A stretch of 64,000 nt of DNA from Sunxiuqinia indica (GTDB taxonomy: Bacteria > Bacteroidota > Bacteroidia > Bacteroidales > Prolixibacteraceae), in contig NZ_WVEM01000002.1 of assembly GCF_009847015.1 (NCBI RefSeq), forward strand, positions 404,325 to 468,324. The letters are read 5' to 3'. The notes beneath the pieces were generated by a model, which saw only the letters and a list, made by a program, of their open reading frames with translations, was not told where the DNA came from and did no database searches. Shown here piece after piece: positions 14,335-56,829 of this stretch. How positions within the stretch are numbered: position 1 is the first letter of the stretch; each line of letters starts with the position of its first letter. The position numbers and the translations under genes are program-made.

Positions 14335-14379
14335 AGTAGCGAGAGGCGGGCTTGAACCGCCGACCTCATGATTATGAAT
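14335..14379 (-). repeat. Attachment-site repeat: 3' half of tRNA-Met left behind (left end)
   Basis: These 45 bp match 56785-56829, the 3' half of the intact tRNA-Met gene from the anticodon loop to just past the discriminator base, with two mismatches (14352 and 14356). The 5' half is absent here. For integration into a tRNA 3' end this is the displaced original end of the host gene. Confidence 0.9.
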
Positions 14380-14504
14380 TAAATAAAATCTGTTTTCTTC
14401 TATTTTTATCGTTTTGTATTTTATTGCTAATATCCAGTGTGGTAGGTATTTGTGTGGTGCTGTTAGTGATTTTTTATTTGCTTCATTTTGACGGATAGAC
14501 TAAT

Positions 14505-14528
14505 TTTGTGTGCAAATTGTGTGCAAAT
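14505..14528 (+). repeat. Left arm-type site: tandem TTGTGTGCAAA
   Basis: Two adjacent copies of the 11-bp unit TTGTGTGCAAA (14506-14516 and 14517-14527) lie just upstream of the integrase gene. The same 24 bp recur in the same orientation at 56717-56740, near the other end. Tandem short sites at both ends of an element are typical of integrase arm-binding sites; this role is inferred. Confidence 0.65.
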
Positions 14529-14558
14529 TTTTGTCGCACACAGAATAATTAGAAGGCC

Positions 14559-15788
14559 ATGTTTACATATGCAAATAATGGAATCACAATCGCTTCAATT
14601 CTTGATCAACGAAAAGAAATGAAAGGCGAGATATTCCCCGTAAAGATACGTGTAACTTTTAACAGAGTAAGAAAATACTATGCTACAGGAAAGAAGATGA
14701 GTATAGATGACTGGGAGAAATTGCCGGAAACAAGAAGTCGGAATAAGATCTCAGTTCGTAGTGATATTCAGTATTCGTTCGATAAAGTAAAAGACGCTGT
14801 CATAAAATTGGAACGGGAAGACGGTTTTTCTCTGACTGCGTTGAATAGTTACCTTGGAAAGAACTCGGGTGATACGTTAAATCAAGCTTTTCAATTAAAA
14901 ATCGAGACCCTATTAGAGAATGAACAGATTAATAGTAGTGAATATTATAGCTATACATTGAAGAGTATTGAGGAATTTGCGGGCAAGAATATTGGGTTCG
15001 ATTCTGTTACTCCGGATTGGTTACGCAAATTTGAGAAACATCTCCTGAAGGAAGGCAAGTCATACACTACGGTAGGAATGAGATGTCGCGCAATTCGGGC
15101 TGTAATGAATAGTGCCAAAGAAGCCCATATTGTTAAGGAAAGTCAATATCCTTTTGGCAGAGGGAAATATGAGATCCCAACTGGTCAGGGAAGGAAATTG
15201 GCATTAACGCTGCATCAGATTAAAAAATTGGTGACTTATACCGACGGGAGTGAAGCGATTGAGCACGCAAGGGACATGTGGTTTTTCTCGTATCTCTGTA
15301 ACGGAATAAACTTTGCCGATATACTGACACTCAAACGTTCTAATATTAAGAATGGAGAGATATCATTTATTCGGGCAAAGACAAAAACGACGGCAAAAGT
15401 AAAAAAGGAAATTAAAGCGATCGTGACGCCGGAAATGGAGGGGATCATGAAACGTTGGGGAAATAAGGATAAAAGTCAGGATAGTTACATCTTTGATTTC
15501 CTGAACGGTGATGAATCTCCAGCGAGAATAAAAGCGAGAACCAGGGATGTTATAAGTAATTGTAACCGTCGGCTTCGAAAAATTGGTAAAGCTATCGGCG
15601 TAGAGGGGCTGAGTACGTATTCTGCAAGACACTCTTTTGCAACTGTTTTGAAGAGATCCGGTTCAAACATTGCCTATATTTCAGAAAGTCTTGGTCATAA
15701 TGATCTCAAAACAACTGAGAATTACCTGGCTTCATTTGAAAAAGAGGAGCGGATTAAGAATGCAAGCTTCCTGACTAATTTTGACTAA
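14559..15788 (+). CDS. Tyrosine recombinase/integrase (Bacteroidota type)
   Basis: The 409 residues fit the family: an N-terminal arm-binding domain (about 1-90), a SAM-like core-binding domain (about 105-200) and a catalytic domain (about 215-400). Visible catalytic residues are Arg357 and His358 (SARHSFAT), His380 in LGHND and the nucleophile Tyr389 in ENYL. The first catalytic Arg is not where expected: the box reads YLCNGINFADI, with Asn in its place, a substitution seen in some Bacteroidota integrases. The gene lies 180 bp inside the left attachment repeat and next to the tandem arm-type site, so it most likely catalyses integration into tRNA-Met. Confidence 0.92.
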   Translation: MFTYANNGITIASILDQRKEMKGEIFPVKIRVTFNRVRKYYATGKKMSIDDWEKLPETRSRNKISVRSDIQYSFDKVKDAVIKLEREDGFSLTALNSYLGKNSGDTLNQAFQLKIETLLENEQINSSEYYSYTLKSIEEFAGKNIGFDSVTPDWLRKFEKHLLKEGKSYTTVGMRCRAIRAVMNSAKEAHIVKESQYPFGRGKYEIPTGQGRKLALTLHQIKKLVTYTDGSEAIEHARDMWFFSYLCNGINFADILTLKRSNIKNGEISFIRAKTKTTAKVKKEIKAIVTPEMEGIMKRWGNKDKSQDSYIFDFLNGDESPARIKARTRDVISNCNRRLRKIGKAIGVEGLSTYSARHSFATVLKRSGSNIAYISESLGHNDLKTTENYLASFEKEERIKNASFLTNFD

Positions 15789-15901
15789 AAGGCATTGGAG
15801 CTATCTCGTCCTAATATTTATTTATCCATAATTTATTGTTAGTCCGTTGGTGTTTATCAAAAGAATATTGGAAATTAGAGAACAATATAGAAAAATGAAA
15901 A

Positions 15902-16324
15902 ATGGCCCGTCGGAAAGTCCATAAAATCCTTGCTCGAGATACCGCTATCTTCAATGAGATTGTTGATGAGCTTCGAAAGCGATCTGATTTCGAGGAATAC
16001 GACATGGAAACCATTGAAATATCAGTGAAAAAGAAGATTGTCCCTCGAATCCGAAACATTGAGCACGCGATAGATAACCTGAAGAGATACATCGCAATAA
16101 ACAGTGCTTTCATAAAAACGGTTGAAGGGGAGCCGGTAACATCCAAAAAAGAAATTGTAAGAATGTTAAGGATTTCCAGACCGACGTTGGATAAGTGGAT
16201 TTCAGATGGTTTTATTACCCCAATCCGGGCTGGTGTATGTCCTAGTAAAGAAGTTTTTCCGCCCGAAGAGATACTGAAACAGCTACAAGATCAAAAGGAA
16301 AATCAAACAATAAAAAAGAAATAA
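15902..16324 (+). CDS. Helix-turn-helix DNA-binding protein of the replication module
   Basis: A 140-residue basic protein. The C-terminal third holds a MerR/excisionase-like HTH (KKEIVRMLRISRPTLDKWIS, about residues 82-102) followed by a short wing and the charged tail EEILKQLQDQKEN. The N-terminal half is helical with no known motif. It precedes a second HTH gene and a helicase gene on the same strand. A decayed relative stands in the equivalent place of the second module (39300-39494). Genes at this position usually act in excision or in control of replication; which applies here is not shown. Confidence 0.7.
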   Translation: MARRKVHKILARDTAIFNEIVDELRKRSDFEEYDMETIEISVKKKIVPRIRNIEHAIDNLKRYIAINSAFIKTVEGEPVTSKKEIVRMLRISRPTLDKWISDGFITPIRAGVCPSKEVFPPEEILKQLQDQKENQTIKKK

Positions 16325-16537
16325 ATCAACTTTACATCACGGGTATAGCTCCGTAATTTGCATGGAAAATGTAAATGTTAGGTGGAAGAATTAAACTTTA
16401 CTTGCTTCTTTTGGGTGGATAAAATACTTGATTGAAGATCGTGTATAGCTATTTGGAGTGTTGATAATGAGTTTCTTGTGTTTTTATTTTGCTTTTAAGT
16501 TCAATAAAAAAGAAGTAGAAATAAAAACGTGAAAGCA

Positions 16538-16876
16538 ATGTCAAACATTATTGTAACAACCCCTGAGGAATTGAAGGAAATCATTACCGATGTTATTTCC
16601 AAAGTTTTACCCAAACAAGCGGCCATTCAAGAGACAATCGATTCCATTACTTTAAATGATGCAGTGGAAGTGTTGAGAGAGAACGGATATCCAACTTCAA
16701 AAGCGAAGATCTACAAACTTACTTCAACCGGGAAGATTCCGGTAAAAGTTTACGGGAACAAGCTCGTGTTTTCTCGCAAAGAGATTCTGCAGTGGGCCGA
16801 AAATCAGTCAAAACCAAAGCATGACTATAGCCAGGCTTGTAGTACGATCGCGAGGAGTGCGAGACGGAAAAAGTGA
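16538..16876 (+). CDS. Excisionase-like HTH protein, module 1
   Basis: 112 residues from the ATG at 16538 (MSNIIVTTPEEL); the in-frame GTG at 16529 is less likely because the paralogue at 39716 starts the same way. The core is an HTH_17-type DNA-binding domain (GYPTSKAKIYKLTSTGKIPV, then FSRKEILQWAEN). It is very similar to the product of 39716-40054. Both genes directly precede a helicase-like gene, so the protein is probably a control or loading factor of the replication module. Confidence 0.8.
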   Translation: MSNIIVTTPEELKEIITDVISKVLPKQAAIQETIDSITLNDAVEVLRENGYPTSKAKIYKLTSTGKIPVKVYGNKLVFSRKEILQWAENQSKPKHDYSQACSTIARSARRKK

Positions 16877-16953
16877 ATACTCCATGGATCCAACTGGCTG
16901 TTGGTATCCAGTTGTCAAGTTTCTATTCACGTAATTCACAAGTTCCATCTATC

Positions 16954-18147
16954 ATGAAAAGAAATGGTAAAGTTGTCCCATTCAAGCAGCAGGAGCAAGA
17001 TCGTGGTTTGAGGGATTTGAAAGAATTTTTAAGGGCAAATTACGATATTCGTTTTAATAGCGTTACTGAAAAGAGCGAGTTTAAACGTAATGGGGAGCGT
17101 TGCTTCATATCTCTGGAAGACTATTATTTAAATTCTATTTTTTTCAATATAAAATCTAACGGAATAAAAGTTTCAATTGACAATTTACGACGTTTGTTGG
17201 AGTCTGATTTTGCGGAAAGAGAGAATCCGATTAAAAGTTATATCGAGGATTTACCTCAATGTATCGGAATTACAAATATTGAGAAGATCATTAATACTGT
17301 TGATTTCGAAACCGTGGAGGACCATCATTTTTTCAAGAAGGTTTTCCCCAAATGGTTTGTGGCTCTGGTTGCCAATGTTTTTGATGAGGATCGGTGTACG
17401 AATCATACTTGCTTAGTCTTTACCGGAGCCCAAGGGAAGAGAAAGACAACCTGGTTCAATCAAATCATTCCACCTGAGTTGGATCCGTATAAATTCAATG
17501 GAAAGATTGATCCGAACAGTAAGGATACGCTGGCTTTGATTCACAGTAAACTCCTGATTATTATCGATGATCAATTAAAACAGATCAACAAGAAGGATGA
17601 AAATGATATCAAGGAGTTGATAACCAAAGATAAAGTCACTTATCGAAAGCCATTTGCAGTTTTTGATATGACACGCCCGCATTTAGCTTCGTTTGCTGCA
17701 ACTGTTAATGGAGATGACTTTCTTACCGATGCGACTGGCTCAAGGAGGTTTCTGTCATTTTGCGTTCAAAACTGTAATGTTGAAAAACTCAAAGAAGTGG
17801 ATTTGGCCAAGGCATACGCTGAGGCGTATCATCTTTATTTATCCGGATTTCGGTATTGGTTTAATGATGAGGAGGTGGCAGAGATTAATCAGAAGAATGA
17901 GGAATTTACTTCTGTTTCAATTGAGATGGAGTTAATTGACAAATACTTTGATGTCGATGGTTTAGAAAAAGAGTTTTATTCAGCTGGTGAAATCAAGCTG
18001 TACTTGGAAGCCTTCACGAAAAATTATATTTCAACTAAAAGAATAGGAGAGGCGCTGTCAAAACTGGGTGTAAAGCGCATATCGGTTAGAGATGATCAGG
18101 GCAGAATCAGGAAGAAATATCCAATTAAAAGGCGGACAATATGCTAA
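16954..18147 (+). CDS. VapE/VirE-type P-loop ATPase (replication helicase-like), module 1
   Basis: 397 residues from the ATG at 16954. A GTG at 16873 overlaps the stop of the previous gene and would add 27 residues, so translational coupling there is possible. The Walker A motif GAQGKRKTT and the Walker B motif LLIIIDD are clear, followed by a sensor region (HLASFAATVNGDDFL, GSRRFLSF) typical of the virulence-associated E family of SF3-like helicases in mobile elements. It very likely unwinds the element's origin. An iteron-like cluster follows at once. Confidence 0.85.
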   Translation: MKRNGKVVPFKQQEQDRGLRDLKEFLRANYDIRFNSVTEKSEFKRNGERCFISLEDYYLNSIFFNIKSNGIKVSIDNLRRLLESDFAERENPIKSYIEDLPQCIGITNIEKIINTVDFETVEDHHFFKKVFPKWFVALVANVFDEDRCTNHTCLVFTGAQGKRKTTWFNQIIPPELDPYKFNGKIDPNSKDTLALIHSKLLIIIDDQLKQINKKDENDIKELITKDKVTYRKPFAVFDMTRPHLASFAATVNGDDFLTDATGSRRFLSFCVQNCNVEKLKEVDLAKAYAEAYHLYLSGFRYWFNDEEVAEINQKNEEFTSVSIEMELIDKYFDVDGLEKEFYSAGEIKLYLEAFTKNYISTKRIGEALSKLGVKRISVRDDQGRIRKKYPIKRRTIC

Positions 18148-19164: not shown

Positions 19165-19956
19165 TTATTGTTTTTCAGTTCTATTTCTATCTATCTCAAA
19201 ATAAGCCTCACTGCTATATCTAGCATGTTCGTTCCGATCAATATAGCCCAATTGGTTTGTTAATATTTGCGTCTTTCCGATTTTAAAAGCCGGAATATTG
19301 ACATGATGATGACCAAAAATCCAGGCGTAGGGCCCAAATTTTTCGATCAGTGGTGAAAGCTCTGTTGCAAAAGCTTCATTCAGACTATCACCTTTGTACT
19401 GCTCCGGATAATTCATGAATGTGGGGACATGGTGCGAACATACTACAACCGGGCAACCGTTCAGTTTTTCGAGTTCTTCTCGTATAAAAGCCCGGCTTTT
19501 GCGGTGCAACAAGTTTGCGCCAACAGATGAAAAACGTGATCGACCGGTTTTAATGACATGAAAATCATTCATGCAGCGTTCAATCATCCAAGCGTTTTGA
19601 ATACTAATTTTAGACCATAGGGTTGCCGCAATAAAGTTCACTCCTTCGTAATTAATTGTGGTATCATTGACCAATGCGATGTTGTTTCGAATTTCCCGAT
19701 GTAGCGGATGTTCGTACGTGTCGAGATTTTCCCTGTAATACTCATGATTGCCAGGTACCCAAATCACTTGCTCGAACTCGTTGGCAAGTCTATCGAAGAA
19801 CCAGTTGAAACGCGAGATGGAACCCAAGGGGACAATGTCTCCCGCCAGAACAAGGATTGGCGCGACCGGATGAATCGGATTTGCTCGAATGAATTGTTCA
19901 TTCTTCGGAAATTCCAAGTGTAAGTCGGAGCAATATTGGATGGTTAAATGACTCAT
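19165..19956 (-). CDS. Calcineurin-like metallophosphoesterase
   Basis: 263 residues with the full set of metal-binding motifs in order: SDLHLE (D-x-H) at residue 10, AGDI, GNHE near residue 70, SHH near residue 175 and GHHH near 217. The family cleaves phosphoester bonds with two metal ions; its members act on nucleotides, nucleic acids or phosphoproteins, and the substrate here is unknown. The protein is cytosolic, with no signal peptide. A decayed copy of its 3' end lies 3.2 kb away (22331-22616), so the gene was once duplicated in this element. Confidence 0.85.
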   Translation of the reverse strand: MSHLTIQYCSDLHLEFPKNEQFIRANPIHPVAPILVLAGDIVPLGSISRFNWFFDRLANEFEQVIWVPGNHEYYRENLDTYEHPLHREIRNNIALVNDTTINYEGVNFIAATLWSKISIQNAWMIERCMNDFHVIKTGRSRFSSVGANLLHRKSRAFIREELEKLNGCPVVVCSHHVPTFMNYPEQYKGDSLNEAFATELSPLIEKFGPYAWIFGHHHVNIPAFKIGKTQILTNQLGYIDRNEHARYSSEAYFEIDRNRTEKQ

Positions 19957-20196
19957 CGAATTCTAATTCTGCTATGTATTTGGTGCTTTCGCAACAACGC
20001 TAATTTCTATTATGAATCTAGTTTGTTCAAATTTCAGTCTTCTTTTTTTTGTAGAAAATCCGAGAACAGGCCCGCAGGCACGTGTTCCCGGGTGCATTCT
20101 TAACTATAAATCCAAGGCTAAAATACGATTTCTTATCAGAGGATGATATAATCCTTATTTTCAAAAGAGGAAAAAACGGAAGAAGAAGAATTAGAT

Positions 20197-21117
20197 TTAG
20201 AATAGAATACCCTTTAGGTTTTCGATAATCTGTTTGTGTTTATTGGGATTGTCCTTCTTTAACTTCTGTAAATTAAGTAGTTTCCATTTGATTGCTGGTA
20301 GGTCCTTTAAAACAGGGTGCGGAAACAACTTCCAGTCTGGCTCTCCCATTTCGAAGCTTAATAAAAATCGCTTTTCATCTTCAGTAAGTCTTTGTTGGAT
20401 GGTTTCAATTAACGTTGTTCTGGTTTTTTCGTAATCATCATACGAAAATTCAACAGAAGTCATCCCTGCGAATTGGTTGTCAAATGCAGACTTTTGGTCT
20501 TTTAGGAGGGGAGATAATAATTCACTTATTGGCTTGTAATGGCTAATCAATCCAATTTTTACGCCATCCCATATTCCATCGGTTAATCCTTTATTTTCCA
20601 ATAGTAGCTTAACATCAAATATATCACGAGGATGTTGCCTGTCGATTGCAGCGCAAATTTTACCACCGTATAATTCTGCTAACGATACTACGTTGATCGC
20701 TGCAAACTTGTCAAATTCATCCTGAACAGAATCAACAACCTGCATCAGTTCAGTTGGAAATACATTACCTCTGGTAATGGTGTTAACTTCAATTTTAATT
20801 TGAGCATTTTTCCCCTGGACATTTAATTTCACATCGGTTCCTCCATTTAATGGCACGGTATGAACTTTTACGTCAGGTACATTTTTTTCGATATCAGCTT
20901 TTATACGTGTTAATCCATCCTGAATATTATTCAAAGCATCTTCTCTTGAATCTAATGGTAGATAAGTAAGGTCGATATCCACAGATAAACGAGGCATATT
21001 TCTTACAAATAGGTTAATGGCTGTTCCACCTTTTAGGGCAAAATTCTTCTCTTTTGCTACAAAAGGCAAAACCTGTAATAATAAATCTACCTGAGCTTTA
21101 TATGTCGTAGAAATCAT
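20197..21117 (-). CDS. AbiEii/AbiGii-type nucleotidyltransferase toxin
   Basis: 306 residues with the DUF1814/AbiEii nucleotidyltransferase signature: KGGTAINLF near residue 28 and LSVDIDLTY near residue 44, supplying the catalytic Asp pair, then the later AELYGGKICAAIDRQHPRDI block. Family members add nucleotides to target RNA (shown for tRNA in related MenT toxins) and halt growth, for example upon phage infection. It overlaps the upstream gene by 4 bp (ATGA), so the two are co-translated as a type IV-like toxin-antitoxin pair. Confidence 0.85.
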   Translation of the reverse strand: MISTTYKAQVDLLLQVLPFVAKEKNFALKGGTAINLFVRNMPRLSVDIDLTYLPLDSREDALNNIQDGLTRIKADIEKNVPDVKVHTVPLNGGTDVKLNVQGKNAQIKIEVNTITRGNVFPTELMQVVDSVQDEFDKFAAINVVSLAELYGGKICAAIDRQHPRDIFDVKLLLENKGLTDGIWDGVKIGLISHYKPISELLSPLLKDQKSAFDNQFAGMTSVEFSYDDYEKTRTTLIETIQQRLTEDEKRFLLSFEMGEPDWKLFPHPVLKDLPAIKWKLLNLQKLKKDNPNKHKQIIENLKGILF

Positions 21118-21881
21118 AAATCTGCTAATTCTTTAGGGATTGAGAGTAAATATTTAGGAACGTGTACGCCTTTTTCTGCAAGCATTCGGTTCCCGGTTCC
21201 AATATCTATTTTATCTGTTTTTAAAAACGTTAACCATTGATGATTGGCCTTTTCTGTCATATAAAGAAATAAACGCTTAACTTTTACCGAATTGCACTGG
21301 GTTAGAAGTTCATTAACCAGTTTAGGCTTTAAATTTACCAGGCCTTCAAATATGTGAAAGCATTCGACCAAATCCATTTTTTGAGGAGCCAAGTATAAAC
21401 ATTCCATGATGGCTCTTTCGGGCGTAGAAACATTTATTTGTATTTGACCTTGCTCTAATACTTTTATACCTAAGTCCGATGGCAAAAATGAACTCAAGTG
21501 ATGTTGTAAATCTAACCCCCAATTGTAGTCGGTAAACCACTTTGGTAGCTTAGTCTTTAAAGGAGAGAATAATTGCAAGGATTCATTGTTCATGCGAAAG
21601 TAATGACTATAACCTTGCAGTGCCAATGCAGATAATCCACCGACATGAACATTGGTTGCAGTTTGTTTCTGTATGGCATTTAAGGCACCTTGCCATTCTA
21701 TTTTATCCCCCGGTTTCTTATAAGCACTTCGCCCAATTGATTCGAGCCAGCCACTTTTAAGATAGTATTTTTGTAAATCTCTGGATATGCCATAAGCTTC
21801 CAACCAGTCGACAGTAACCACACAGCCGGGTTGTAATATCTTGAATAGTCTTTTTAAATATGTCTTGTTTTGGGTAGTCAT
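21114..21881 (-). CDS. AbiEi-like antitoxin/transcriptional regulator
   Basis: 255 residues with an N-terminal winged-helix region (about 1-90) and a C-terminal AbiEi-like domain, including the recognisable STPERAIMECLYLAP block. In AbiE systems this protein represses the operon and neutralises the nucleotidyltransferase. It lies directly upstream of the toxin gene and overlaps it by 4 bp, the usual order antitoxin then toxin. Confidence 0.82.
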   Translation of the reverse strand: MTTQNKTYLKRLFKILQPGCVVTVDWLEAYGISRDLQKYYLKSGWLESIGRSAYKKPGDKIEWQGALNAIQKQTATNVHVGGLSALALQGYSHYFRMNNESLQLFSPLKTKLPKWFTDYNWGLDLQHHLSSFLPSDLGIKVLEQGQIQINVSTPERAIMECLYLAPQKMDLVECFHIFEGLVNLKPKLVNELLTQCNSVKVKRLFLYMTEKANHQWLTFLKTDKIDIGTGNRMLAEKGVHVPKYLLSIPKELADL

Positions 21882-22330
21882 GCTACACGTTTTGAGACAA
21901 AAATAAAAAATAAAACCTGAATTCGCTTGAGTGTTGTTTTATATTTATTCACATTGGGGTAGGTTTACTACCCTTTTTGAGATAAAATTAAAAAAAAAAG
22001 GCATGTTGATTATTACAGCATGCTATGGATTATGTTGATATATTTTCTTATGAATATTTAAAAGTGGAACATGGATAAACTATTGATTCTTTCTCCAATA
22101 GCTAATTTGCTTTTTTATTTTTATCGTATTAATTCTGAATCGAGCCATATCTTCACTTGCTTGAAAGAATTCGAAAATTTACTGATACCTCAATTTTTTA
22201 TTCGGTGCGCATAGAATCGGCCGATAAGCGTGTTTTTCCCTGATTTGAAACGATAGCCCAATATCCTTTGTCGGGTATTTACTTCGATCTTTCATTGTAA
22301 TATCAGTTTTGCATGGTAACAGACATGATG
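21882..22330. other. Intergenic AT-rich region
   Basis: Upstream region of the abi pair, before the phosphoesterase remnant. I see no gene, no RNA and no clear promoter. Confidence 0.3.
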
Positions 22331-22616
22331 TTATTGTGCAGACTATTTGTTGGTTTGTTGTTTTTCAGTTTTGTTTTTATCTATTTTAAAATAAGCCATA
22401 CCGTTATAACTGGTATGTTCGTTCCGATCGACATACCCCAATTGATTAGTTAACATTTGCGTCTTTCCAATTGTAAAAGCCGGAATATTGGCATGACGAG
22501 GACCAAAAATCTAGGCTTCTGGGTTAAATTCTTTGTTATGGGGGAATGATCAATGGCAATGCCTTGATTCAAACTATCTCCACTATATTGTTCCGGATAA
22601 TTCAGGAATGTAGTGT
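22331..22616 (-). pseudogene. 3' remnant of a second metallophosphoesterase gene
   Basis: This stretch aligns over about 285 bp with 19139-19430, the end of the intact phosphoesterase gene. It has lost the stop codon, carries an in-frame TAG in place of the Trp of AWIFG, and has lost the metal-binding histidines (GHHH reads as GPRH). The first two-thirds of the gene are missing. It is the relic of a tandem or transposed duplication. Confidence 0.85.
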
Positions 22617-22707
22617 ACAATCCAGATAGTAATAATCATTAACACAAATTGAGAGATCTTATATTAGCTCTCAGTTTGAGCCAATTTTCTGATTACATGA
22701 GACTATT

Positions 22708-27259: not shown

Positions 27260-27278
27260 TTTCTATTTTTTAGGAGAA

Positions 27279-47132: not shown

Positions 47133-47151
47133 TTTGAAAATTTTAAGTTTA

Positions 47152-47649: not shown

Positions 47650-47673
47650 TTTAATTGGTGCTATAATTTATTT

Positions 47674-48099
47674 TTAACATTTATCAAACGTTCCTTTTAT
47701 CTGAAGTACAAACTCTTTGATATGGAATCCTTTAATTTCCCTGTTCTTGAAATATTCTCTTAGAACTGTATCCAATTCTTCGTCGATATAATCTTCAATT
47801 AAGTCACATTCGGTACAATACAAATGATGGTGTTTACCCATAACGCCGTCGTAACGCATTACATCCCGATCGGTTGTGACCCGTCTTATAAGTTTGTTTT
47901 CAATCAAGGTGTCAAGTACTTTGTAGACAGTGCCGGAGGCAATATTCGGGTTGTTCTTTCGAATATGCTCGATTATGTTGTCGGCCGTTGGATGTCCGCC
48001 AACGCCGTAAACAGCTTCAAGAATTGCAATTCTTTGAGGTGTGACTTTTAGTCCCTTATCTGAGAGTTGATTTCTTATATTTTCTATTGTCGTTTTCAT
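47674..48099 (-). CDS. perR: Fur-family regulator, PerR-like
   Basis: 141 residues. A winged helix at about 15-85 (KVTPQRIAILEAV; ASGTVYKVLDTLIE) and a metal-sensing dimer domain with HHHLYCTECDLIED near residue 90, which carries His and Cys ligands. A second Cys pair of the structural zinc site is not obvious; only a terminal Cys is seen. The operon context of ferritin and peroxiredoxin supports peroxide sensing (PerR) over iron sensing. First gene of the operon and probably autoregulated. Confidence 0.82.
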   Translation of the reverse strand: MKTTIENIRNQLSDKGLKVTPQRIAILEAVYGVGGHPTADNIIEHIRKNNPNIASGTVYKVLDTLIENKLIRRVTTDRDVMRYDGVMGKHHHLYCTECDLIEDYIDEELDTVLREYFKNREIKGFHIKEFVLQIKGTFDKC

Positions 48100-48770: not shown

Positions 48771-49565
48771 TTAAAGAAAAAACTGTGGTTCCTTTCTCTG
48801 CCCACAATTATCAAAAAGTCGTTCGCGAATTGTTTGAATAATTTCCACATCGAACGTGCGCGCTTGTTCCGGACATTGCTTAACGCAGGCACAGCACCAA
48901 ATGCATCTCTCAGCGTCGGTAAAAACGTTGCAGTTCACCGTTATGGCACCTGGCGGGCAACTTTCGGCGCAGGCTCCGCATAAGTTGCAGTTGGAGCTAT
49001 TGGTTTCGGGTGCAAGGGCTGGTCGTTGTTTACGCTCTACAAAAGGTTGATTACCTGGTAACTGCTCGAGTGCGAATAGGTGATCACGATTAGGGGTTTC
49101 CAATTTTACTTTGATCTGGCTCGAGAATGCGTGAATTTGCAGCAGATCATTAGCATCAGGCCGATTGGCTGCAATCGGCTTTTGAGCAGTAGAGTACGAG
49201 TGTTCTCCGATAAAAGCAGCCGCAGCAATAACCTGAAAATTTGCTTTTTGTACAAGCTCTGCCAATTCAAGCAAAGCGTCGTCGAACTCCCGGTTCCCGT
49301 AAACAACAAGCACGATTGCTTTTGAGCCTTTTCCATCGATATTCAGAAAACGAACGACTGCATCGAGCGGCAAGCGGCCCGAATAGACGGGCATGCCTAT
49401 AATCGAGATCGAATCTGCGTTAAAATGATCTGTGTTGATCTCAAAATCCGGCTTTGTCAGGTTAATCTGATTGACAAGGTTTGAACAGAGATCGTTAGCC
49501 AGCGTGTTTGCTATCGTTTTTGTGGTGTGAGTTGGCGAAAAGTAGATGCTGTTTATTGATTCCAT
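48771..49565 (-). CDS. EFR1-type flavodoxin-ferredoxin fusion
   Basis: 264 residues. The N-terminal flavodoxin-like part (about 1-150) opens with IYFSPTHTTKTIANTLA, the FMN phosphate loop. The C-terminal part has two [4Fe-4S] motifs, CNLCGACAESCP and CIWCCACVKQCP. Proteins of this kind move electrons in anaerobes. It sits 88 bp downstream of the CoA-disulfide-reductase gene on the same strand, so it may be a redox partner there. Confidence 0.85.
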   Translation of the reverse strand: MESINSIYFSPTHTTKTIANTLANDLCSNLVNQINLTKPDFEINTDHFNADSISIIGMPVYSGRLPLDAVVRFLNIDGKGSKAIVLVVYGNREFDDALLELAELVQKANFQVIAAAAFIGEHSYSTAQKPIAANRPDANDLLQIHAFSSQIKVKLETPNRDHLFALEQLPGNQPFVERKQRPALAPETNSSNCNLCGACAESCPPGAITVNCNVFTDAERCIWCCACVKQCPEQARTFDVEIIQTIRERLFDNCGQRKEPQFFL

Positions 49566-49653
49566 AGCATTTGAAAATTAAATCCGGCAGCCTTCAAAAT
49601 TATAAAAATGAATTTGAGACTGCCGGAGTTTCTCCCCAATAATCATTTGTTGA

Positions 49654-51348
49654 CTATTTTTCTTTTTCGAATGGCCAGCCGGCAATTCCACCTTCCATCA
49701 CTTTCACGTTGGTGTAGCCATGTGCCTTTATCAGCATGGCCGCTTCGTAGCCACGCAGCGATATTTTACAATAGGTGACAATCGTTTTGTTTTTGTCGGC
49801 GGGAAGTTCGTTGATGCGTTTCCTGAGAACGCCCAGTGGAATCAGTGTTTCACCAACGCCAAGACGGGTTTGTTCGTATTCATCGGCTCCACGAACGTCA
49901 AGAATATACAGGTCTTCGCCGCTATCGAGCATTGTTTTCAGATCGAGCGCCGAGATGCCATCAAACAGACCGTGCATCTTATTTTGAAGGATATGAGCCG
50001 TTGCGATACTGTGGTCGATAGCCAGTGAGAAGGGAGGCGCGTACGGAAGATCGGCATTCACCATGTCGTCAACCGTTAATTTCCCTTTGATTGCTGTTGC
50101 CCAAATAGCCAGTTGTTTGCTGACGTCGCCCGGACCGAGGCATTGCGCACCCAGAATTCGCCCGGTTTTCCTTTCTGCAACCAGTTTGGTGAACAGTAGT
50201 TTACCATCCATAAAACCCGGTTTGTCGGGGCTGGCATTGACCGCTTTTACATAGTCAATGTCAGCATCAATCGCTTTGGCTTCCGATAAGCCGGTGATTC
50301 CTACGCCGTAATCAAATATTTTACAAACTCCGGTCTGAATCGTTCCCGGAAAGGTCGCTACATTTCCTTTGATGATGTTTTCGCCGGCTGCACGACCTTC
50401 AAGATTTGCCAGGTCGCCGTAAGGGGCTAAGACATTTTTGCCGGTAATCAGGTTGGGAATTTCGCAGCAGTCGCCGGCAGCGTATATATCAGGGTCGCTG
50501 GTTTGCATGTACTCGTTGGCAATGATGCCTCCAAGCTTGCCAATTTCCAGCCCGGCGGCTTTCGCTAAATCAACGCGGGGACGTATGCCGATGGCTACAA
50601 CCGCCAGTTCGCAGGGGATTTCCGTACCATTCTGCAATTTAACACCGATTAGTTTGCCATTTTCTCCAATGAATTCGGCAACACCATTTTTAGTCACCAC
50701 ATTGGCTTTCGATTTCAGGTAATTTTCAACCAGCTTCGCCATTTTCCAGTCGAGGAAGGTGAGGAGTTGTGGCAGAAGTTCAATCATTGTCAGTTCAATC
50801 CCAGCCAGGTGAAGGGCTTCCAGGGTTTCGATACCGATTAAGCCGCCACCGATCACAACTGCTTTCTGTATTTTCTTTTCGTCCCTGATTTTACGCAGGT
50901 AGTCAGCATCCTGCATCGATTGCAGTGTTGTGATGCCATCAAGGTTGATTCCCGGAATTGGTGGCATATTCGCCGTTGCTCCGGTCGCAATTACCAGCTT
51001 GTCGTACTCCTGCGTGCCGGTTTCTCCGGTCAGCAAATCTTTGTATTCAATCAGCTTTTTAGCCCGATCTATTTTCGTTACCTCGGTGTTAATTTTGCAA
51101 ACAATACCCTTGGCATTCCAGTAAAAATTAGGGTCGCGAACCACGCCGGTCGGAGTACAAAGCAATTTATTGCGATCGTCGAAAAATCCGCCCACGTAAT
51201 ACGGAAAACCACAGGAAGCCATCGACAGGTCGGGGCCTTTCTGAAACATGGTTATTTCGGCAAATTCGTCCATGCGTCGTGCGCGGGCAGCAGCTTTCGG
51301 ACCTGCAGCTGAGCCGCCAATAACGATTATTTTCTTGCGTGTAGTCAT
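49654..51348 (-). CDS. CoA-disulfide reductase-like flavoenzyme fused to rhodanese
   Basis: 564 residues. The FAD-binding motif IIVIGGSAAGPKAAARAR is at the N-terminus, followed by the single active Cys in SMASCGFPYY (near residue 46), the NAD(P)H motif VVIGGGLIGIE near 168 and a dimerisation domain to about 450. A rhodanese domain (about 460-560) carries its own Cys in VTYCKISLRG. The layout matches CoADR-RHD enzymes, which reduce CoA disulfide, persulfides or polysulfide using NAD(P)H. A role in sulfur or persulfide metabolism for the neighbouring Fe-S machinery is likely. Confidence 0.9.
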   Translation of the reverse strand: MTTRKKIIVIGGSAAGPKAAARARRMDEFAEITMFQKGPDLSMASCGFPYYVGGFFDDRNKLLCTPTGVVRDPNFYWNAKGIVCKINTEVTKIDRAKKLIEYKDLLTGETGTQEYDKLVIATGATANMPPIPGINLDGITTLQSMQDADYLRKIRDEKKIQKAVVIGGGLIGIETLEALHLAGIELTMIELLPQLLTFLDWKMAKLVENYLKSKANVVTKNGVAEFIGENGKLIGVKLQNGTEIPCELAVVAIGIRPRVDLAKAAGLEIGKLGGIIANEYMQTSDPDIYAAGDCCEIPNLITGKNVLAPYGDLANLEGRAAGENIIKGNVATFPGTIQTGVCKIFDYGVGITGLSEAKAIDADIDYVKAVNASPDKPGFMDGKLLFTKLVAERKTGRILGAQCLGPGDVSKQLAIWATAIKGKLTVDDMVNADLPYAPPFSLAIDHSIATAHILQNKMHGLFDGISALDLKTMLDSGEDLYILDVRGADEYEQTRLGVGETLIPLGVLRKRINELPADKNKTIVTYCKISLRGYEAAMLIKAHGYTNVKVMEGGIAGWPFEKEK

Positions 51349-51366
51349 TTCAAATTCGATTTAAGG

Positions 51367-52149
51367 TTAGAATTGATGTGTTTGCCCGGTCTTGACGAAC
51401 GGGTTCGAAAACTGGTTTTGAAAGGCAGCCAATGCCGGTAAGTCAGTGCAATGTGAAGGGAGTATCGTTTCAACTTTTTCCCGCATGAAATAGTTGATGG
51501 TTTCCTTCGTTTGAAGGTTATTTTGTTTCAGATGGAAGCCGCCAATCACGGTTTTGATGTGGTCGACTCCGGTAATCTTTTTGGCGTATTCGCAGATGTT
51601 GCAGATGCCGGAATGGCTGCAACCGGTCACGATGATCAAGGCCTCGTTTTCGATGAAAGCCAGAGCCGAATCATCGGGAACAAAATCTTCGTTCCCGTTT
51701 TCGTCAACAAAAGCAATCGTTTGCGCCTCGAAATTGTTTGCTCTTGGAATCTCAGCCAGGAAAAAGATGTGTTTGGAAATTTGAACAGGAGTGGCTGAAA
51801 CCTGCAGATCAAACTGTTTTTCAACTTCCTGGCGGCTCATGCGCAAGCCTAAATTTGTCTGATCGTGTTTCCGAAAACGCTTCATAAATGATTTTGGATG
51901 CGTCAGCAACGGCTTATTTTGAATGTATCTCAAGCCGTCCCCGTGATCCCAATGTCCGTGACTAAGAACGATTTGGTCAACTTGCTCATTCAAATTGATG
52001 CCCAAACGACTGGCATTTTTCAGGAAGACATCACTGTGCCCTGTATCCAATAGAATTGTTTTTTCATCATGCTCAATCAGGTACGACAGTCCGTGTTCCG
52101 CATAAAAGCTGCCTCCGGCAACGTTTTCAGTTAATACCGTTAGTTTCAT
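51367..52149 (-). CDS. Metallo-beta-lactamase-fold hydrolase
   Basis: 260 residues with the signature LSHGHWDHGDGL (H-x-H-x-D-H) near residue 63, then TGCSHSGICN with a further ligand and GGFHL. It resembles the group related to 7,8-dihydropterin-6-methyl-4-(beta-D-ribofuranosyl)aminobenzene-phosphate synthase-type MBL proteins often found beside NifX/MinD genes in anaerobes. Substrate unknown. It overlaps the thioesterase gene by 4 bp, so it is in the same operon. Confidence 0.85.
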   Translation of the reverse strand: MKLTVLTENVAGGSFYAEHGLSYLIEHDEKTILLDTGHSDVFLKNASRLGINLNEQVDQIVLSHGHWDHGDGLRYIQNKPLLTHPKSFMKRFRKHDQTNLGLRMSRQEVEKQFDLQVSATPVQISKHIFFLAEIPRANNFEAQTIAFVDENGNEDFVPDDSALAFIENEALIIVTGCSHSGICNICEYAKKITGVDHIKTVIGGFHLKQNNLQTKETINYFMREKVETILPSHCTDLPALAAFQNQFSNPFVKTGQTHQF

Positions 52150-52592
52150 ACCATTTTTATTGCAAAGAGTTGATCGAATTTTTCTTTTACAAATTCCGGA
52201 ATTCGCATAGGCTTCCGGGTCTTGCTGTCGACAAAAACAACCGTCGAGTTAGCCGAACACACCAACTGGTTTTGCTCGTTCCGTGCTTCAAACTGAAAAT
52301 TCAACCGAGTGATGGGCTCTTCAGCAATAATGGTGTGAATTGTCAGCAGTTCGTCGTAACCGGCAGGTCGATGATATTGCAAATTCATACTGATGACCGG
52401 CATCATAACTTGTTGTGCCTCCAGTTTACTGTCTTCAATTCTCATTTCGCGCATCAATTCGGTGCGAGCCTGGTGAAAGTAATTGACGTAGTTACCATGG
52501 TACACGTAACCCATTTGGTCGACTTCACCGTAACGGGGGCGCAGGGTTATTTCTCCTTTAATCATTCCTTGTGTTTCAATTTTGTTTGACAT
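52146..52592 (-). CDS. Hotdog-fold acyl-CoA thioesterase (4HBT/YbgC type)
   Basis: 148 residues from the ATG at 52592; the frame is open to 52661, inside the preceding gene. RYGEVDQMGYVYHGNYVNYF carries the catalytic Asp of the YbgC/4HBT hotdog family. It hydrolyses acyl-CoA thioesters. Here it is wedged between an MBL-fold protein and an Mrp ATPase, with overlaps on both sides, an unusual partner set for which I have no explanation. Confidence 0.88.
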   Translation of the reverse strand: MSNKIETQGMIKGEITLRPRYGEVDQMGYVYHGNYVNYFHQARTELMREMRIEDSKLEAQQVMMPVISMNLQYHRPAGYDELLTIHTIIAEEPITRLNFQFEARNEQNQLVCSANSTVVFVDSKTRKPMRIPEFVKEKFDQLFAIKMV

Positions 52593-53412
52593 ATTTGAAG
52601 CCCCAGGCTTTATCCGACACCGATTTTTGAATCGATTCGGCCAGGGCTCTGAATTTTTCAACCATAATCGGGTTCTTGCTTATTTTGAAGGTTTCGGGCG
52701 AATTCACTTCATTTTCACAAATTAGCGGCAGTTGAGCCAACAGTGGAACATTGAGTTGGTTCGCCAGCAGCTGGCCGCCCCCGTTCCCGAATACAAAATA
52801 GCGCTCGTCGGGGTGTTGTGCCGGTATAAAATAGGCCATGTTTTCGACCACGCCCAAAAGTGGCACATGGAGGTGCTCATTTTCGAACATATCAGCAGCT
52901 TTCTCCGCGTCTGCCAGCGACAATTGCTGGGGTGTAGTCACAATTAGTGCTCCTGAAATCGTTAGTTTCTGAATGGCGGTTAGCTGAATGTCGCCTGTCC
53001 CCGGAGGAAAATCCAGGATCAAGAAATCTGTTTCGCCCCACTCGGTCGACGATAATAGTTGCGTCAGTACGCCGGATGCAGCTGGTCCGCGCCAGATCAA
53101 TGATTTTTTCTTGGTAACAAAGAACCCAACGGAAATGAGTTTGACGCCATATTTTTGAACAGGCATATATTTTTCACCTTCCGGATATTTAAAAACCTGT
53201 GGCTTTTCATCCTGAACATCAAAAAGAATCGGGCTTGAAGGTCCATACAGGTCGGCGTCGAACAACGCTGTTTTATAGCCTTCAGACGCCAAGGCGACTG
53301 CAAGATTGGCAGCCACAGTTGATTTGCCGACGCCGCCTTTCCCGGATGCTACAACGATGATGTTTTTTACACCGGGGAGTTTTATTTTTTCGATTGTTGC
53401 TTGCTTATTCAT
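52576..53412 (-). CDS. Mrp/NBP35-type Fe-S carrier P-loop ATPase
   Basis: 278 residues from the ATG at 53412. The deviant Walker A motif GKGGVGKST is near residue 27, DADLYGPSSP near 57 and DFPPGTGD near 136. The C-terminal CxxC expected of a full Fe-S carrier is not seen, so it may act more as ATPase partner. Members carry or insert Fe-S clusters. Overlaps the next MinD-like gene by 8 bp. Confidence 0.88.
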   Translation of the reverse strand: MNKQATIEKIKLPGVKNIIVVASGKGGVGKSTVAANLAVALASEGYKTALFDADLYGPSSPILFDVQDEKPQVFKYPEGEKYMPVQKYGVKLISVGFFVTKKKSLIWRGPAASGVLTQLLSSTEWGETDFLILDFPPGTGDIQLTAIQKLTISGALIVTTPQQLSLADAEKAADMFENEHLHVPLLGVVENMAYFIPAQHPDERYFVFGNGGGQLLANQLNVPLLAQLPLICENEVNSPETFKISKNPIMVEKFRALAESIQKSVSDKAWGFKYVKQN

Positions 53413-54274
53413 TATCAATTAATTTTTTCCAAATAGCTCTGATTTGATCACTTAATTCTGATTCAGGTGCCCAGTCGACAATGCTTTTACAGTTGATCAT
53501 GGCTTCTACCCAAACCTGCGAGAATGGTATTTTACTGATTACCGGAATTTGCTTTCCGACAGCCCATTTTTCGATTTCCTCCGTCATTTCCGGGTTGATG
53601 TCGCATTTGTTGATGACCAGGAATACTTCCAGTTTGTATTGACTGACCAACTCGGTGATGCGTTTCAGATCGTGCATACCTGATACAGTCGGCTCTGTTA
53701 CTAACAATACCTTATTGATACTACTCAACGTTGAAATTACCGGGCAGCCGATTCCCGGGGGACCATCGATTAAAATGAGGTCAGACTGAATATCGTGCGC
53801 TTCTTTGCGCGCATGGTCGCGAACGAGATTGACTAATTTTCCCGAATTATCTTCGCCTGGTGCCAAACGAGCGTGTACCATTTTTCCGTTCCGAATAGCA
53901 CCGGCAAACCAGCGGCTTTCGTTTTGATCAATCATCGTGATGGCGCCAGTTGGGCAAACGCGCGCGCATAATTTGCAACCATCACAAGCTGTTTCGACAA
54001 CCGAATATTCGCCGTTTGCTAATTTGATGGCGTCAAAACGGCAGTAGTCCATGCATTTGCCGCAGCTCGTGCATTTTTCGACGGCGATATGAGCCTTTTG
54101 GCCGGAGGTATAAACCTTTTCGAGGTAGTTACGCGGTTCTAGAATGAGGTGTAAGTTCGCGGCATCAACGTCGCAGTCGGCAACAACTACTTTGGGGGCT
54201 AAAGTGGCCAGAGCTGCGCTGATCCCGGATTTGCCGGTGCCTCCTTTCCCGCTTAAAATTGCGATTTCTGTCAT
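53405..54274 (-). CDS. MinD-superfamily ATPase with inserted ferredoxin domain (1)
   Basis: 289 residues. Deviant Walker A SGKGGTGKSG at the N-terminus and IDGPPGIGCP near residue 170. An inserted ferredoxin domain (about 65-115) carries CTSCGKCMDYC and CDGCKLCARVC, two [4Fe-4S] clusters. Pairs of such ATPases are encoded with NifX-like proteins in many anaerobes; in Desulfovibrio they belong to the orange-protein (ORP) complex. Overlaps the second copy by 4 bp. Confidence 0.9.
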   Translation of the reverse strand: MTEIAILSGKGGTGKSGISAALATLAPKVVVADCDVDAANLHLILEPRNYLEKVYTSGQKAHIAVEKCTSCGKCMDYCRFDAIKLANGEYSVVETACDGCKLCARVCPTGAITMIDQNESRWFAGAIRNGKMVHARLAPGEDNSGKLVNLVRDHARKEAHDIQSDLILIDGPPGIGCPVISTLSSINKVLLVTEPTVSGMHDLKRITELVSQYKLEVFLVINKCDINPEMTEEIEKWAVGKQIPVISKIPFSQVWVEAMINCKSIVDWAPESELSDQIRAIWKKLIDNE

Positions 54275-55128
54275 CTCTGTAGTTGTTTCGTAATGTTCTG
54301 ATGTAATTTCTTGAACAATTCGCTGTACTGTAGGTATTTATCTGTAATAAGGTCGCCTTTAGCATAAGTCTCTGCGATTCGCTTGTCGAATGGAATATGA
54401 CCTAAAACGGCGATTTCTTCCTTATTTAAATAGTCTTCAATCAGTTCTTTTCCAATTCCGTACCGGTTAATCACGACACCAAATTCTTTTTTCAGTTTGC
54501 GGAGTGTTTCAACCGACAGCTTTAAGTCGTTTAACCCAAATGGAGTTGGTTCGGTCACCAGGACAACGTAATCCGCCCGTTCAACAGTTGCAATAAACGG
54601 ACACGAGGTTCCCGGAGGTGAATCCAAGAAGGTCAATGTATCTGCTTCGGCCATGTTAATCGTTTGCCCGATAATCGGGACTGGCGAGTAAATGCCTATT
54701 TCCGTCTGACTTTCTAGCACATCTGCATTGGCGCTGATGGAATATTGTGTAATACTACCGGTAACTTTTTCTTTTTCGGTAATGGCGTCGTATTGGCAGG
54801 CGTAAACACAAGCCCCGCAGTCGTGGCACAAATCCTCAATCACCCGGATTGTTTTGATTGTAGGAAGCATGATGATGGCGTTATAACTGCAATATTCCTG
54901 GCAATTGCCGCAGAAGGTACATTTATGCGAGTCGATTACCGGAATGTGCGTCATTGTGAGCGTTTCCTCTTCAACATTTCCCCGAATAAATTCACAAACA
55001 TTGGGTTCTTCGGCGTCGCAATCGATTAGCCTTACTTTTTGTCCTTGCCGGCTAATCACATTGAAGAGGTTTGTCGAAACCAGCGTCTTGCCGGTCCCAC
55101 CTTTGCCGCTGGCAATAGCTATTTTCAT
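54271..55128 (-). CDS. MinD-superfamily ATPase with inserted ferredoxin domain (2)
   Basis: 285 residues, a paralogue of the next gene. ASGKGGTGKT at the N-terminus, DSPPGTSCP near residue 169, and a ferredoxin insert with CTFCGNCQEYC and CHDCGACVYAC (about 70-115). First of the two overlapping ATPase genes, following the NifX-like genes upstream after a gap of about 200 bp. The pair probably forms a heterodimer, as in ORP-type complexes. Confidence 0.9.
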   Translation of the reverse strand: MKIAIASGKGGTGKTLVSTNLFNVISRQGQKVRLIDCDAEEPNVCEFIRGNVEEETLTMTHIPVIDSHKCTFCGNCQEYCSYNAIIMLPTIKTIRVIEDLCHDCGACVYACQYDAITEKEKVTGSITQYSISANADVLESQTEIGIYSPVPIIGQTINMAEADTLTFLDSPPGTSCPFIATVERADYVVLVTEPTPFGLNDLKLSVETLRKLKKEFGVVINRYGIGKELIEDYLNKEEIAVLGHIPFDKRIAETYAKGDLITDKYLQYSELFKKLHQNITKQLQR

Positions 55129-55335
55129 TGATTTATAGGATTGTCATTTTACGAAAAACGGGTGTTTGCCCGGTGCTTTGTAGAAATACAAGCTTCATGT
55201 AGCAATCTGATCAATTTCTTAGCAATACAAATCGGGCAGGGTAGAAGGAGCTTCACCCGTTTGATTTGTGCGGAATAAGCCCTTCCTCCTGCCGATTTTG
55301 CTTCAGTTATGGTAAGATCTCTACAAAGCTTGAAT

Positions 55336-55671
55336 TTAATGATCACAAGCGTTAGTTCCTGTCATCAGCCTGTTATCAATTAAATCACGAACCAACTCAT
55401 TTGCCGGCTTATTTGGAGCTCCGGCATGGATGATAATATTATTGGATTTGAATAGGTTAACTGCTTTTTGTCCGATACCGCCTGATATAATTTCGGTAAC
55501 GCCTCTTTCTGCCAACCACTTTGGCAGTAACCCGGGCTCGTGAGGTGGTGCTTCAACGACGGTTTCGTTACCGATAGAATCGTTCTTTACTTCGATTAAA
55601 GTAAAATGCTTACAATGTCCGAAATGTGTACTTAAAACACCATTTTCGGTTGGGATAGCTATTTTTCTCAT
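55336..55671 (-). CDS. NifX/NifB-C-like (dinitrogenase cofactor biosynthesis fold) protein
   Basis: 111 residues starting KIAIPTENGVLSTHFGHCKH, with the HEPGLLPKWLAERGVTEII block and SGGIGQKAV. The fold binds metal-sulfur clusters; in ORP it holds a Mo-Cu cluster. No nif structural genes are nearby, so nitrogen fixation is not implied. It shares the operon with a second NifX-like gene. Confidence 0.88.
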   Translation of the reverse strand: MRKIAIPTENGVLSTHFGHCKHFTLIEVKNDSIGNETVVEAPPHEPGLLPKWLAERGVTEIISGGIGQKAVNLFKSNNIIIHAGAPNKPANELVRDLIDNRLMTGTNACDH

Positions 55672-55685
55672 TGTTAGTTTTTTAT

Positions 55686-55922
55686 TTATCTGCCTCTTCT
55701 TCTTCCACCACCAAATCCACCTCCGTTAGATTGGCAGCGTTGTTTTCCACGGCCTCTGTTCCTGAACATTGGTCTCATTTCCATTTGTTCCAGATTGTTT
55801 TCTGTTGGTGTCATTGTGTTCTCTTCTCCAAAAATCCGGTTTGTTTTGTTTCCGCATTTTCCCATCGAACGACCTGTCATCGGTCCTTCACTTTTGGGTC
55901 CTTGTCTGTTAAGTCCTGGCAT
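55686..55922 (-). CDS. DUF5320-like small Gly/Arg-rich protein
   Basis: 78 residues: MPGLNRQGPKSEGPMTGRSM at the start, the N-terminal sequence typical of DUF5320 proteins, and an Arg/Gly-rich tail (GGGFGGGRRRGR). It lies between the two NifX-like genes. DUF5320 proteins accompany NifX/MinD genes in many anaerobes; their role is not known. Confidence 0.85.
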   Translation of the reverse strand: MPGLNRQGPKSEGPMTGRSMGKCGNKTNRIFGEENTMTPTENNLEQMEMRPMFRNRGRGKQRCQSNGGGFGGGRRRGR

Positions 55923-55933
55923 GGCTTCTGTTT

Positions 55934-56254
55934 TTAATTTTGACTAATTTGATTCAATATTTCTTCGATGGTAATGTTAGTTTTACCATGAATAATCATC
56001 TGGATATTCAATCCACTAAGTATATCTTTTACCTTACCTCCAAATTCTCCCGATATAATTCGGGTTACCCCTTGCGATACAATAAATTGAACGGATGCAG
56101 GACCAGCTCCCTCGTTGCTGGCTTGCCCCGGGTTTGAGAGGAACTCTGTTTGTTTCCGCTCCGTGTCGTAAATGGCAAAGAAAGAGCATCTTCCAAATCG
56201 ATTATCCATTTTTGATTTTATGGTGTGACCAGTTGCTGTTATTGCTATTTTCAT
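55934..56254 (-). CDS. NifX-like metal-cluster-binding protein (2)
   Basis: 106 residues: KIAITATGHTIKSKMDNRFG, then CSFFAIYD and GVTRIISGEFGGKVKDIL, the usual NifX/ORP-fold layout. It is the first gene of the minus-strand block that runs to 48771. The promoter should lie just above 56254, but the region shows no clear motif. Confidence 0.87.
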   Translation of the reverse strand: MKIAITATGHTIKSKMDNRFGRCSFFAIYDTERKQTEFLSNPGQASNEGAGPASVQFIVSQGVTRIISGEFGGKVKDILSGLNIQMIIHGKTNITIEEILNQISQN

Positions 56255-56716
56255 CTATATATTTGATTTTATTAGATTGTAAATGATGCTTCTAGATGTA
56301 TCTAAAAAGAACAAATGTTCATTGCAAATATAGCGAAGATATGATTACGAGGAACAATAGAACCATTAAATTTTTGACGAATTAAAAGTATTGGTATTTA
56401 ATTCTTTGATTTAGAATAGGATGATCTTAAGAGGAAGAAGGTTTTGTTTATCTATTCTGCTGTCTCAAAATTCATAATGTTCTTAAAGAAATTTAGAATT
56501 TGTAATGACTTTCAAAGATTTTAGTTACCCATAAGAATATCTAGAATAGATCCGCATAATGCATTGATTCCAGGGACGGAATTCTTCGGCAAGCCTGGTA
56601 GCATCAATTTCAGAATACTGGATATTGAAGATGTATATTCCTTTTATTCGGAATTATTTTAAAAGTTTATTTGTGTTTGGATATGGGGTAAAATCGGAGT
56701 TGAAGCTGCCTGTTGA
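56255..56716. other. Right-end intergenic region of the element
   Basis: About 460 bp of AT-rich DNA between the last cargo gene and the right arm-type site. I see no gene or relic that I can name. Confidence 0.3.
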
Positions 56717-56740
56717 TTTGTGTGCAAATTGTGTGCAAAT
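56717..56740 (+). repeat. Right arm-type site, copy of 14505-14528
   Basis: The same 24 bp as at the left end, in the same orientation: two adjacent TTGTGTGCAAA units. It lies 44 bp inside the right attachment repeat. The presence of the same tandem at both ends binds the two ends to one integrase. Confidence 0.7.
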
Positions 56741-56743
56741 AAA

Positions 56744-56777
56744 AAGAGGTTATAAGTTTTTAATCTTATAACCTCTT
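56744..56777 (-). terminator. Terminator of the reconstituted tRNA, supplied by the element
   Basis: A perfect 13-bp stem (56744-56756 with 56765-56777) with an 8-nt loop, just after the tRNA 3' end on the minus strand and followed by a T-rich run. It replaces the host terminator now stranded at 14297-14330. Confidence 0.75.
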
Positions 56778-56784
56778 GATTTTA

Positions 56785-56829
56785 AGTAGCGAGAGGCGGG
56801 CATGATCCGCCGACCTCATGATTATGAAT
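56785..56829 (-). repeat. Attachment-site repeat within tRNA-Met (right end)
   Basis: Copy of 14335-14379 with two differences, both in the T-loop. It spans the tRNA from the anticodon loop to the 3' end. In this geometry the tRNA 3' half at this end was brought in by the element. Confidence 0.9.

Follow-up and report, generated by a model that had tools for sequence, protein, structure and literature searches.

A probable 42-kb integrative mobilizable element in tRNA-Met with an orange-protein-like redox cluster as putative cargo from another genus

The stretch of DNA analysed here (‘the window’; 64,000 nucleotides, G000:C22:404325-468324, G000 being the source genome) holds a single tRNA gene, tRNA-Met(cat), on the minus strand at 56786-56860 (ARAGORN). 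Between 14335 and 56829 lies what comparison with relatives shows to be a real integrated element of 42 kb, seated in that gene; its left end is formed by a tRNA fragment plus an integrase gene (14559-15788), and its right end by the intact tRNA. The features that mark its ends are as follows.

14335..14379, minus strand: left attachment (att) copy, a detached tRNA-Met 3' half with T-loop allele CTTGAACC
14505..14528, plus strand: left tandem site TTTGTGTGCAAATTGTGTGCAAAT, 24 bp, a probable integrase arm-type site
14559..15788, plus strand: tyrosine integrase, 409 aa (Pfam PF13102, PF00589, PF17293), with relatives beside tRNA fragments
56581..56784, no strand assigned: right end of the element with an element-borne hairpin (DNA matches in G147 and G020)
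56717..56740, plus strand: right tandem site TTTGTGTGCAAATTGTGTGCAAAT, 24 bp, same sequence as the left
56785..56829, minus strand: right att copy, the 3' half of the intact tRNA, with T-loop allele CATGATCC
56786..56860, minus strand: intact, chimeric tRNA-Met(CAU) (ARAGORN)

These ends are seen directly. The 45-bp att copies differ at 14352 and 14356 only, and a search of the window for their 35-bp core pattern, allowing up to three mismatches, gives two hits where 100 shuffles would lead one to expect 0.00; the 21-bp core of the tandem site, taken with the same tolerance, likewise occurs twice against 0.00 in shuffles, the two 24-bp copies being identical. An earlier note on this DNA had taken the tRNA 3'-half copies, the tandem site inside each end and the integrase gene at one end as the marks of an element, and all three are borne out, the integrase by its Pfam matches and by its position adjoining the detached fragment. 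Its predicted empty site, with 14296 joined to 56861, has to be corrected to 14334, one 45-bp copy, then 56830. We also considered two intact elements in tandem, and set this aside in view of the lack of inner att copies or tandem pairs in the window; the single 10-bp motif, one mismatch allowed, turns up no more often than chance would give.

A swap of T-loop alleles accompanies these ends. The detached copy carries CTTGAACC, the allele of all six same-genus relatives examined, and the intact tRNA carries CATGATCC, the allele of G145, G146 and G147. Since the detached copy has the allele of the genus and the tRNA has another, we conclude that the element supplied the tRNA 3' half and that integration replaced the 3' end of the host tRNA; strand exchange lay between 14357 and 14379, with the exact crossover presumably somewhere within that interval. 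The two changed bases, which we take to be T-loop positions 54 and 58, would turn the expected T54-A58 pair into A54-T58. No association of the T-loop variant with elements is evident across 30 tRNA loci (15 per allele), a sample biased by its being the best matches to this tRNA. The CATGATCC variant occurs as well in G126 (L109), there in a fragment of the second CAU tRNA type.

The integrase belongs to a family with a recurrent seat. A search of 140 family genomes at E 1e-80 or better gave 26 matches, ten with a fragment of this tRNA-Met upstream, nine with one from a second tRNA type (tRNA-Met by its call in G061), and seven with neither, one of which has only 121 bases upstream; the upstream fragments all end in TGATTATGA(A/G)T, at the anticodon loop. 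At 29 loci of named genomes the fragment was found in three, all repeats of family members, and for the remainder (Dysgonomonas, Tannerella, Bacteroides acidifaciens and others) either the fragment was not shown or there was no strong match. Across 48 integrase rows (some of them duplicates) N stands in all at the place expected for the first catalytic Arg, and Y in all at that of the box II His, both positions being assigned by motif and the roles of these tyrosine recombinase residues being assumed by us.

Relatives both with and without elements in this tRNA were observed. The helicase of G004, of the same genus, is 99% identical in protein to that of G000, and its DNA follows the right flank at 92% identity from 56723 outward; its tRNA-Met holds a different element of ~20.4 kb, with an integrase 63-64% identical; the same tRNA fragment closes its far end, and a tandem motif of its own stands, exact or near-exact, at both ends. 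Elements with both att copies on one contig are also present in G002, G097, G107 and G092, and G160 has two att copies on one contig with no integrase seen there. The tandem motif differs between elements, yet recurs exactly or nearly so at both ends of each, as would be expected of integrase arm sites. In G006, also of this genus, the tRNA has a single att copy in the 60 kb read and its own hairpin after the tRNA, and the genome gave no integrase match at E 1e-80. The alignment with relatives proposed by the earlier note is answered in part: G006 supplies a tRNA without the element, and no genome found among the relatives joins both flanks of G000. Such a flank-to-flank empty site is not to be expected in G004, because its left flank is rearranged; the M1-peptidase (left) flank is on another contig in G004, and the sequence left of the G004 element (the tRNA-Ala side) lies ~348 kb away in G000. 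The rearrangement, at 14201-14334, directly abuts the left att copy.

A close counterpart is in G147 (Sunxiuqinia sp. isolate SZUA-417, Prolixibacteraceae; a metagenome-assembled genome, 85% complete), which has an identical integrase protein and 96.2% DNA identity over 14332-18774, up to the end of contig G147:C365. The right end (56582-56860) is 94.6% identical in G147, beside its tRNA-Met on another contig, and 93.6% identical in G020, of the same genus as G147. To the left of the att copy on G147:C365 (L120 4443-6897) is the right-end signature of another element, and elements therefore stack at this tRNA; the same stretch contains an open frame that by eye resembles a glycoside hydrolase.

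Next to the right end lies a redox block, in which a peroxide-defence group adjoins a cluster resembling that of the orange protein (ORP) complex.

46401..48099, minus strand: peroxide-defence genes, namely peroxiredoxin (46401-47195), ferritin-like (47152-47649) and Fur/PerR-type regulator (47674-48099)
48771..56254, minus strand: ORP-like cluster, namely Fer4 protein, CoA-disulfide-reductase-like rhodanese protein, metallo-hydrolase, thioesterase, Mrp/ApbC, two MinD-ferredoxin ATPases and two PF02579 proteins

One of the PF02579 proteins matches the ORP structure PDB 2wfb, and an ORP-type PF02579 protein is thus accompanied by two MinD-type ATPases with [4Fe-4S] ferredoxin motifs. The DNA at 48773-56424 matches, at 94.6% identity, a block in the chromosome of G145 (G145:C1:307062-314715), which belongs to another genus, that of Sunxiuqinia sp. 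SZUA-417; all nine block proteins are 92-98% identical to those of G145, against 76% for the helicase of that genome. Identity to same-genus genomes is 49-66% for the ORP-type, Mrp, thioesterase and metallo-hydrolase proteins, the exceptions being AhpC (79-84%) and the reductase (81% in G005, 29-31% in G001 and G004). Trees of 16 rows each repeat the contrast, the MinD pair of G000 grouping with G145 and its helicase with G004, both at support 100/98. Both G145 and G020 have the ORP block with shared neighbours on either side, and as G147 has remnants of it between these neighbours as well, this is the resident place of the block in the donor genus. The ORP block is thus of foreign origin and the redox block is cargo, which the element itself would have brought; genes that one might have assigned to the core genome seem to have been acquired by transfer. 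The peroxiredoxin, ferritin-like and Fur/PerR-type genes lie outside the G145 match.

The source genome has one full ORP copy only. Four of the six same-genus genomes have the block elsewhere, with G001 and G005 sharing one location and with separate locations in G006 and in G004, that of G004 immediately following a tRNA-Val array; no full-length MinD match was found in G002, nor in G003 (71% complete). The G004 copy (G004:C4, L074 7875-19229) is bounded by a 15-bp tRNA-Val repeat that occurs four times in 170 kb, three of them in tRNA-Val genes, and at the corresponding position of G000 stand tRNA-Val and a terminator, with ~97 bp as against ~11.35 kb in G004. We recognised no integrase in this G004 island, which as a mobile element would be at most a relic. 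We think it unlikely that G000 lost the block by recombination through the 15-bp repeat, since its tRNA-Val genes are whole (two, versus three in G004) and the terminator is still there, although precise excision could have had this outcome. Candidate repeats of att type flanking the ORP block of G006 (at tRNA-Cys) and that of G001 (at tRNA-Gln) were rejected, being only 10-11 bp long with E of at least 0.59.

The element contains 51 open reading frames (ORFs) of at least 100 aa, of which 38 were scanned with Pfam, the other 13 overlapping these in other frames. Besides the integrase and the redox block, its contents are as follows.

15902..16324, plus strand: first backbone, 140-aa protein (weak helix-turn-helix match below cut-off; 63% identical to a protein of the G004 element)
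16529..16876, plus strand: first backbone, HTH_17 protein (Pfam)
16873..18147, plus strand: first backbone, VapE-like protein (Pfam)
19165..38551, no strand assigned: middle cargo, with metallophosphoesterase, AbiEii/AbiEi pair (20197-21881), histidine kinase, PF00144 family protein, acyltransferase, ankyrin protein, AraC-TPR protein, O-antigen-ligase-like protein and several proteins without a family
39328..42362, plus strand: second backbone, with a remnant, HTH_17 (39707), DUF5906 / P4-primase-type protein (40060) and DnaG-like primase (41430-42362); no integrase of its own
42550..42852, plus strand: NikA-like mobilization protein (PF21983)
42899..43837, plus strand: relaxase, MobA/VirD2 type (PF03432)
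44586..45852, plus strand: HipA N-terminal and C-terminal domains in two ORFs (Pfam)

By this content the element is, as far as gene families tell, of integrative mobilizable element (IME) type. It has its own integrase and an att-flanked integrated state, a relaxase and mobilization gene of its own (PF03432 and PF21983 over cut-off), a primase, and no match to type IV secretion or coupling proteins, and hence no mating-pore or coupling genes of its own, among the 38 of 51 ORFs scanned; the earlier note, which had described relaxase and primase genes inside without a transfer apparatus, was right on this. TraG-family genes over cut-off number four elsewhere in G000 and zero in G004, G145 and G147; among 14 control genomes, five gave weak matches to this family and none exceeded the cut-off.

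Two backbones are present, the first at 15902-18147 and the second at 39328-42362, with identities of 82.6% over 39328-42350 to the integrase-proximal backbone of G097 and of 82.2% over 39328-42385 to its counterpart in G114. Because there are two backbones with one integrase and no inner att copy, the arrangement suggests that two stacked, related elements have fused.

Some further observations concern the interior and its surroundings. The proteins at 31208, 33430, 35388 and 36565 have no Pfam match over cut-off, and part of 30511-32379 recurs in the G070 element. A partial duplication (19139-19422 / 22329-22611; 82% and 75%) overlaps the metallophosphoesterase gene. Short dispersed repeats occur at 25452-25481 / 48612-48641 (93%) and 30636-30660 / 46303-46327 (96%), with one copy of the former just outside the left edge of the ORP match and one copy of the latter just outside that of the peroxiredoxin gene. 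The split HipA ORFs presumably resemble three-part Hip toxin-antitoxin systems. Outside the element, a repetitive minus-strand frame at 2-9739 stays open for 3246 aa or more and contains a perfect 122-bp repeat (2-123 / 251-372).

Bringing these findings together, we propose, with moderate confidence, that 14335-56829 is one fused IME in tRNA-Met(CAU), carrying peroxide-defence genes together with an ORP-like cluster, the latter from the Sunxiuqinia genus group. In this model, the element would exist as a circle, which its tyrosine integrase would recombine with the tRNA at the anticodon-loop end; the incoming element would supply a new tRNA 3' half and terminator, such that the tRNA stays whole, and the resident 3' half would be displaced to the far end of the element. 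Two related elements would have fused, the second having lost its integrase and left end, in an order that we can only suppose. The ORP-like cluster would have come from the chromosome of the Sunxiuqinia genus group, and the element would then have entered this genus, in a strain without another full ORP cluster, perhaps to the benefit of the host. Transfer would require a helper conjugation system, by which the element could be mobilised.

Other explanations have to be weighed against this one. The interval might instead be a composite island in decay, in which two stacked elements, along with further pieces, persist between the outer att copies but no longer move as one; two backbones with one integrase, degraded sequence at 38.5-39.7 kb, the partial duplication at 19139-19422 / 22329-22611 and the stacked elements of G147 are all compatible with this, but the integrase is open (409 aa), the outer tandem sites are identical and there is no inner att copy, and on balance we think decay unlikely, if worth keeping in mind. 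It is less probable again that the ORP block came late into a resident element, by homologous or illegitimate recombination from another genus and not as a passenger: homology with G145 does stop short of the element ends, at 48773 and 56424, whereas the element ends and the ORP block indicate the same donor genus. A phage satellite is a still poorer fit, since for all its VapE-like and P4-type primase genes, HTH_17 regulators and AbiE pair, the element has a relaxase and a NikA-like protein, and capsid, terminase and packaging families are absent among the 38 proteins scanned (with Pfam only, not PHROGs); we consider it improbable. Least credible of all is an element ending near 46 kb, with the redox block as resident chromosome between it and the tRNA. 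MinD homologues are admittedly common (E <1e-60 in 30 of the 61 relatives searched, the wider set of genomes), yet an att copy and a tandem site are found past the block, the tRNA of G004 has other DNA next to it, and the block is foreign and found at other places in same-genus relatives; in none of the six same-genus genomes does it stand beside tRNA-Met without the element. The earlier note, which had called the block cargo, is upheld; the presence of the block at this place without the integrase end, which it had named as grounds for rejecting that view, was sought in these six genomes and did not turn up.

Several points do weigh against the fused IME that we favour. Excision, a circle and transfer are what we infer, and none of them was seen; the relaxase matches the NCBIfam MobP/MbpB models below cut-off; and the left flank is, on comparison, rearranged relative to G004. 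G147 shows only the two element ends, on separate contigs, and its own ORP block is eroded to remnants between the neighbours shared with G145 and G020. The T-loop allele is not fixed in the donor genus, G020 having CTTGAACC, and the contrast behind the foreign origin draws on one core gene. Finally, the ORP block and this element were seen together in G000 and in no other genome, a point that equally speaks for later entry of the block.

More broadly, five genomes of the genus have the ORP cluster in four places, one in the tRNA-Met element and one bounded by tRNA-Val repeats. We speculate, and would put it no higher than a possibility, that this element family acts as a set of ‘shuttles’, moving an anaerobe-type ORP cluster between genera into a lineage lacking it and rewriting the host tRNA-Met in the process, with the ORP cluster being itinerant within the genus. 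If the cargo reading is true, even an iron-sulfur/redox cluster that looks conserved can travel between genera on a mobile element, and this bears on whether such genes are classed as core or taken to indicate an anaerobic lifestyle. Thanks to the two-base difference, one genome is enough to read in which direction integration went and that part of a host tRNA was replaced; and the element-specific tandem sites form a set for studying the co-evolution of Bacteroidota integrases and their sites. Open-licence literature on orange protein islands or transfer, Prolixibacteraceae mobilizable elements, tRNA-Met sites and IntDOT yielded nothing on this subject, and as far as that literature shows, the ORP cargo and its cross-genus origin are new.

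IMEs in the 3' ends of Bacteroidota tRNA genes are themselves already known: PMC5704250 describes NBU1 in tRNA-Leu and NBU2 in tRNA-Ser, both MobP and mobilised by integrative and conjugative elements, and gives most IMEs as 5-15 kb, the longest being hardly >50 kb. The present element is like NBU1 and NBU2, compared by that description only, in its tyrosine integrase, tRNA 3'-end site, MobP-like relaxase, primase and lack of a transfer apparatus, and differs in its tRNA (CAU), fused double backbone, 42-kb length and ORP-like cargo. Closer to home, the elements of G004, G002, G097, G107, G092 and G147 share its tRNA and layout, with integrases 37-100% identical, but differ in cargo and tandem motif, and the ORP block was seen in none of the stretches compared. 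As for the cargo, the ORP complex of Desulfovibrio, as set out in PMC6345978, likewise unites two MinD-like ferredoxin ATPases, an ORP-family protein and Mrp/NBP35 in one cluster. Here, by contrast, the PF02579 proteins are separate from Mrp, which shows no MrpORP fusion (it scores 226 against the NF041136 cut-off of 450, over the first part only), and the ORP-like genes lie on one strand and not in two divergent operons, the arrangement which in the ORP complex is under a sigma-54 promoter; the cluster also has additional thioesterase, metallo-hydrolase and CoA-disulfide-reductase-like genes, and it resides on what we take to be a mobile element.

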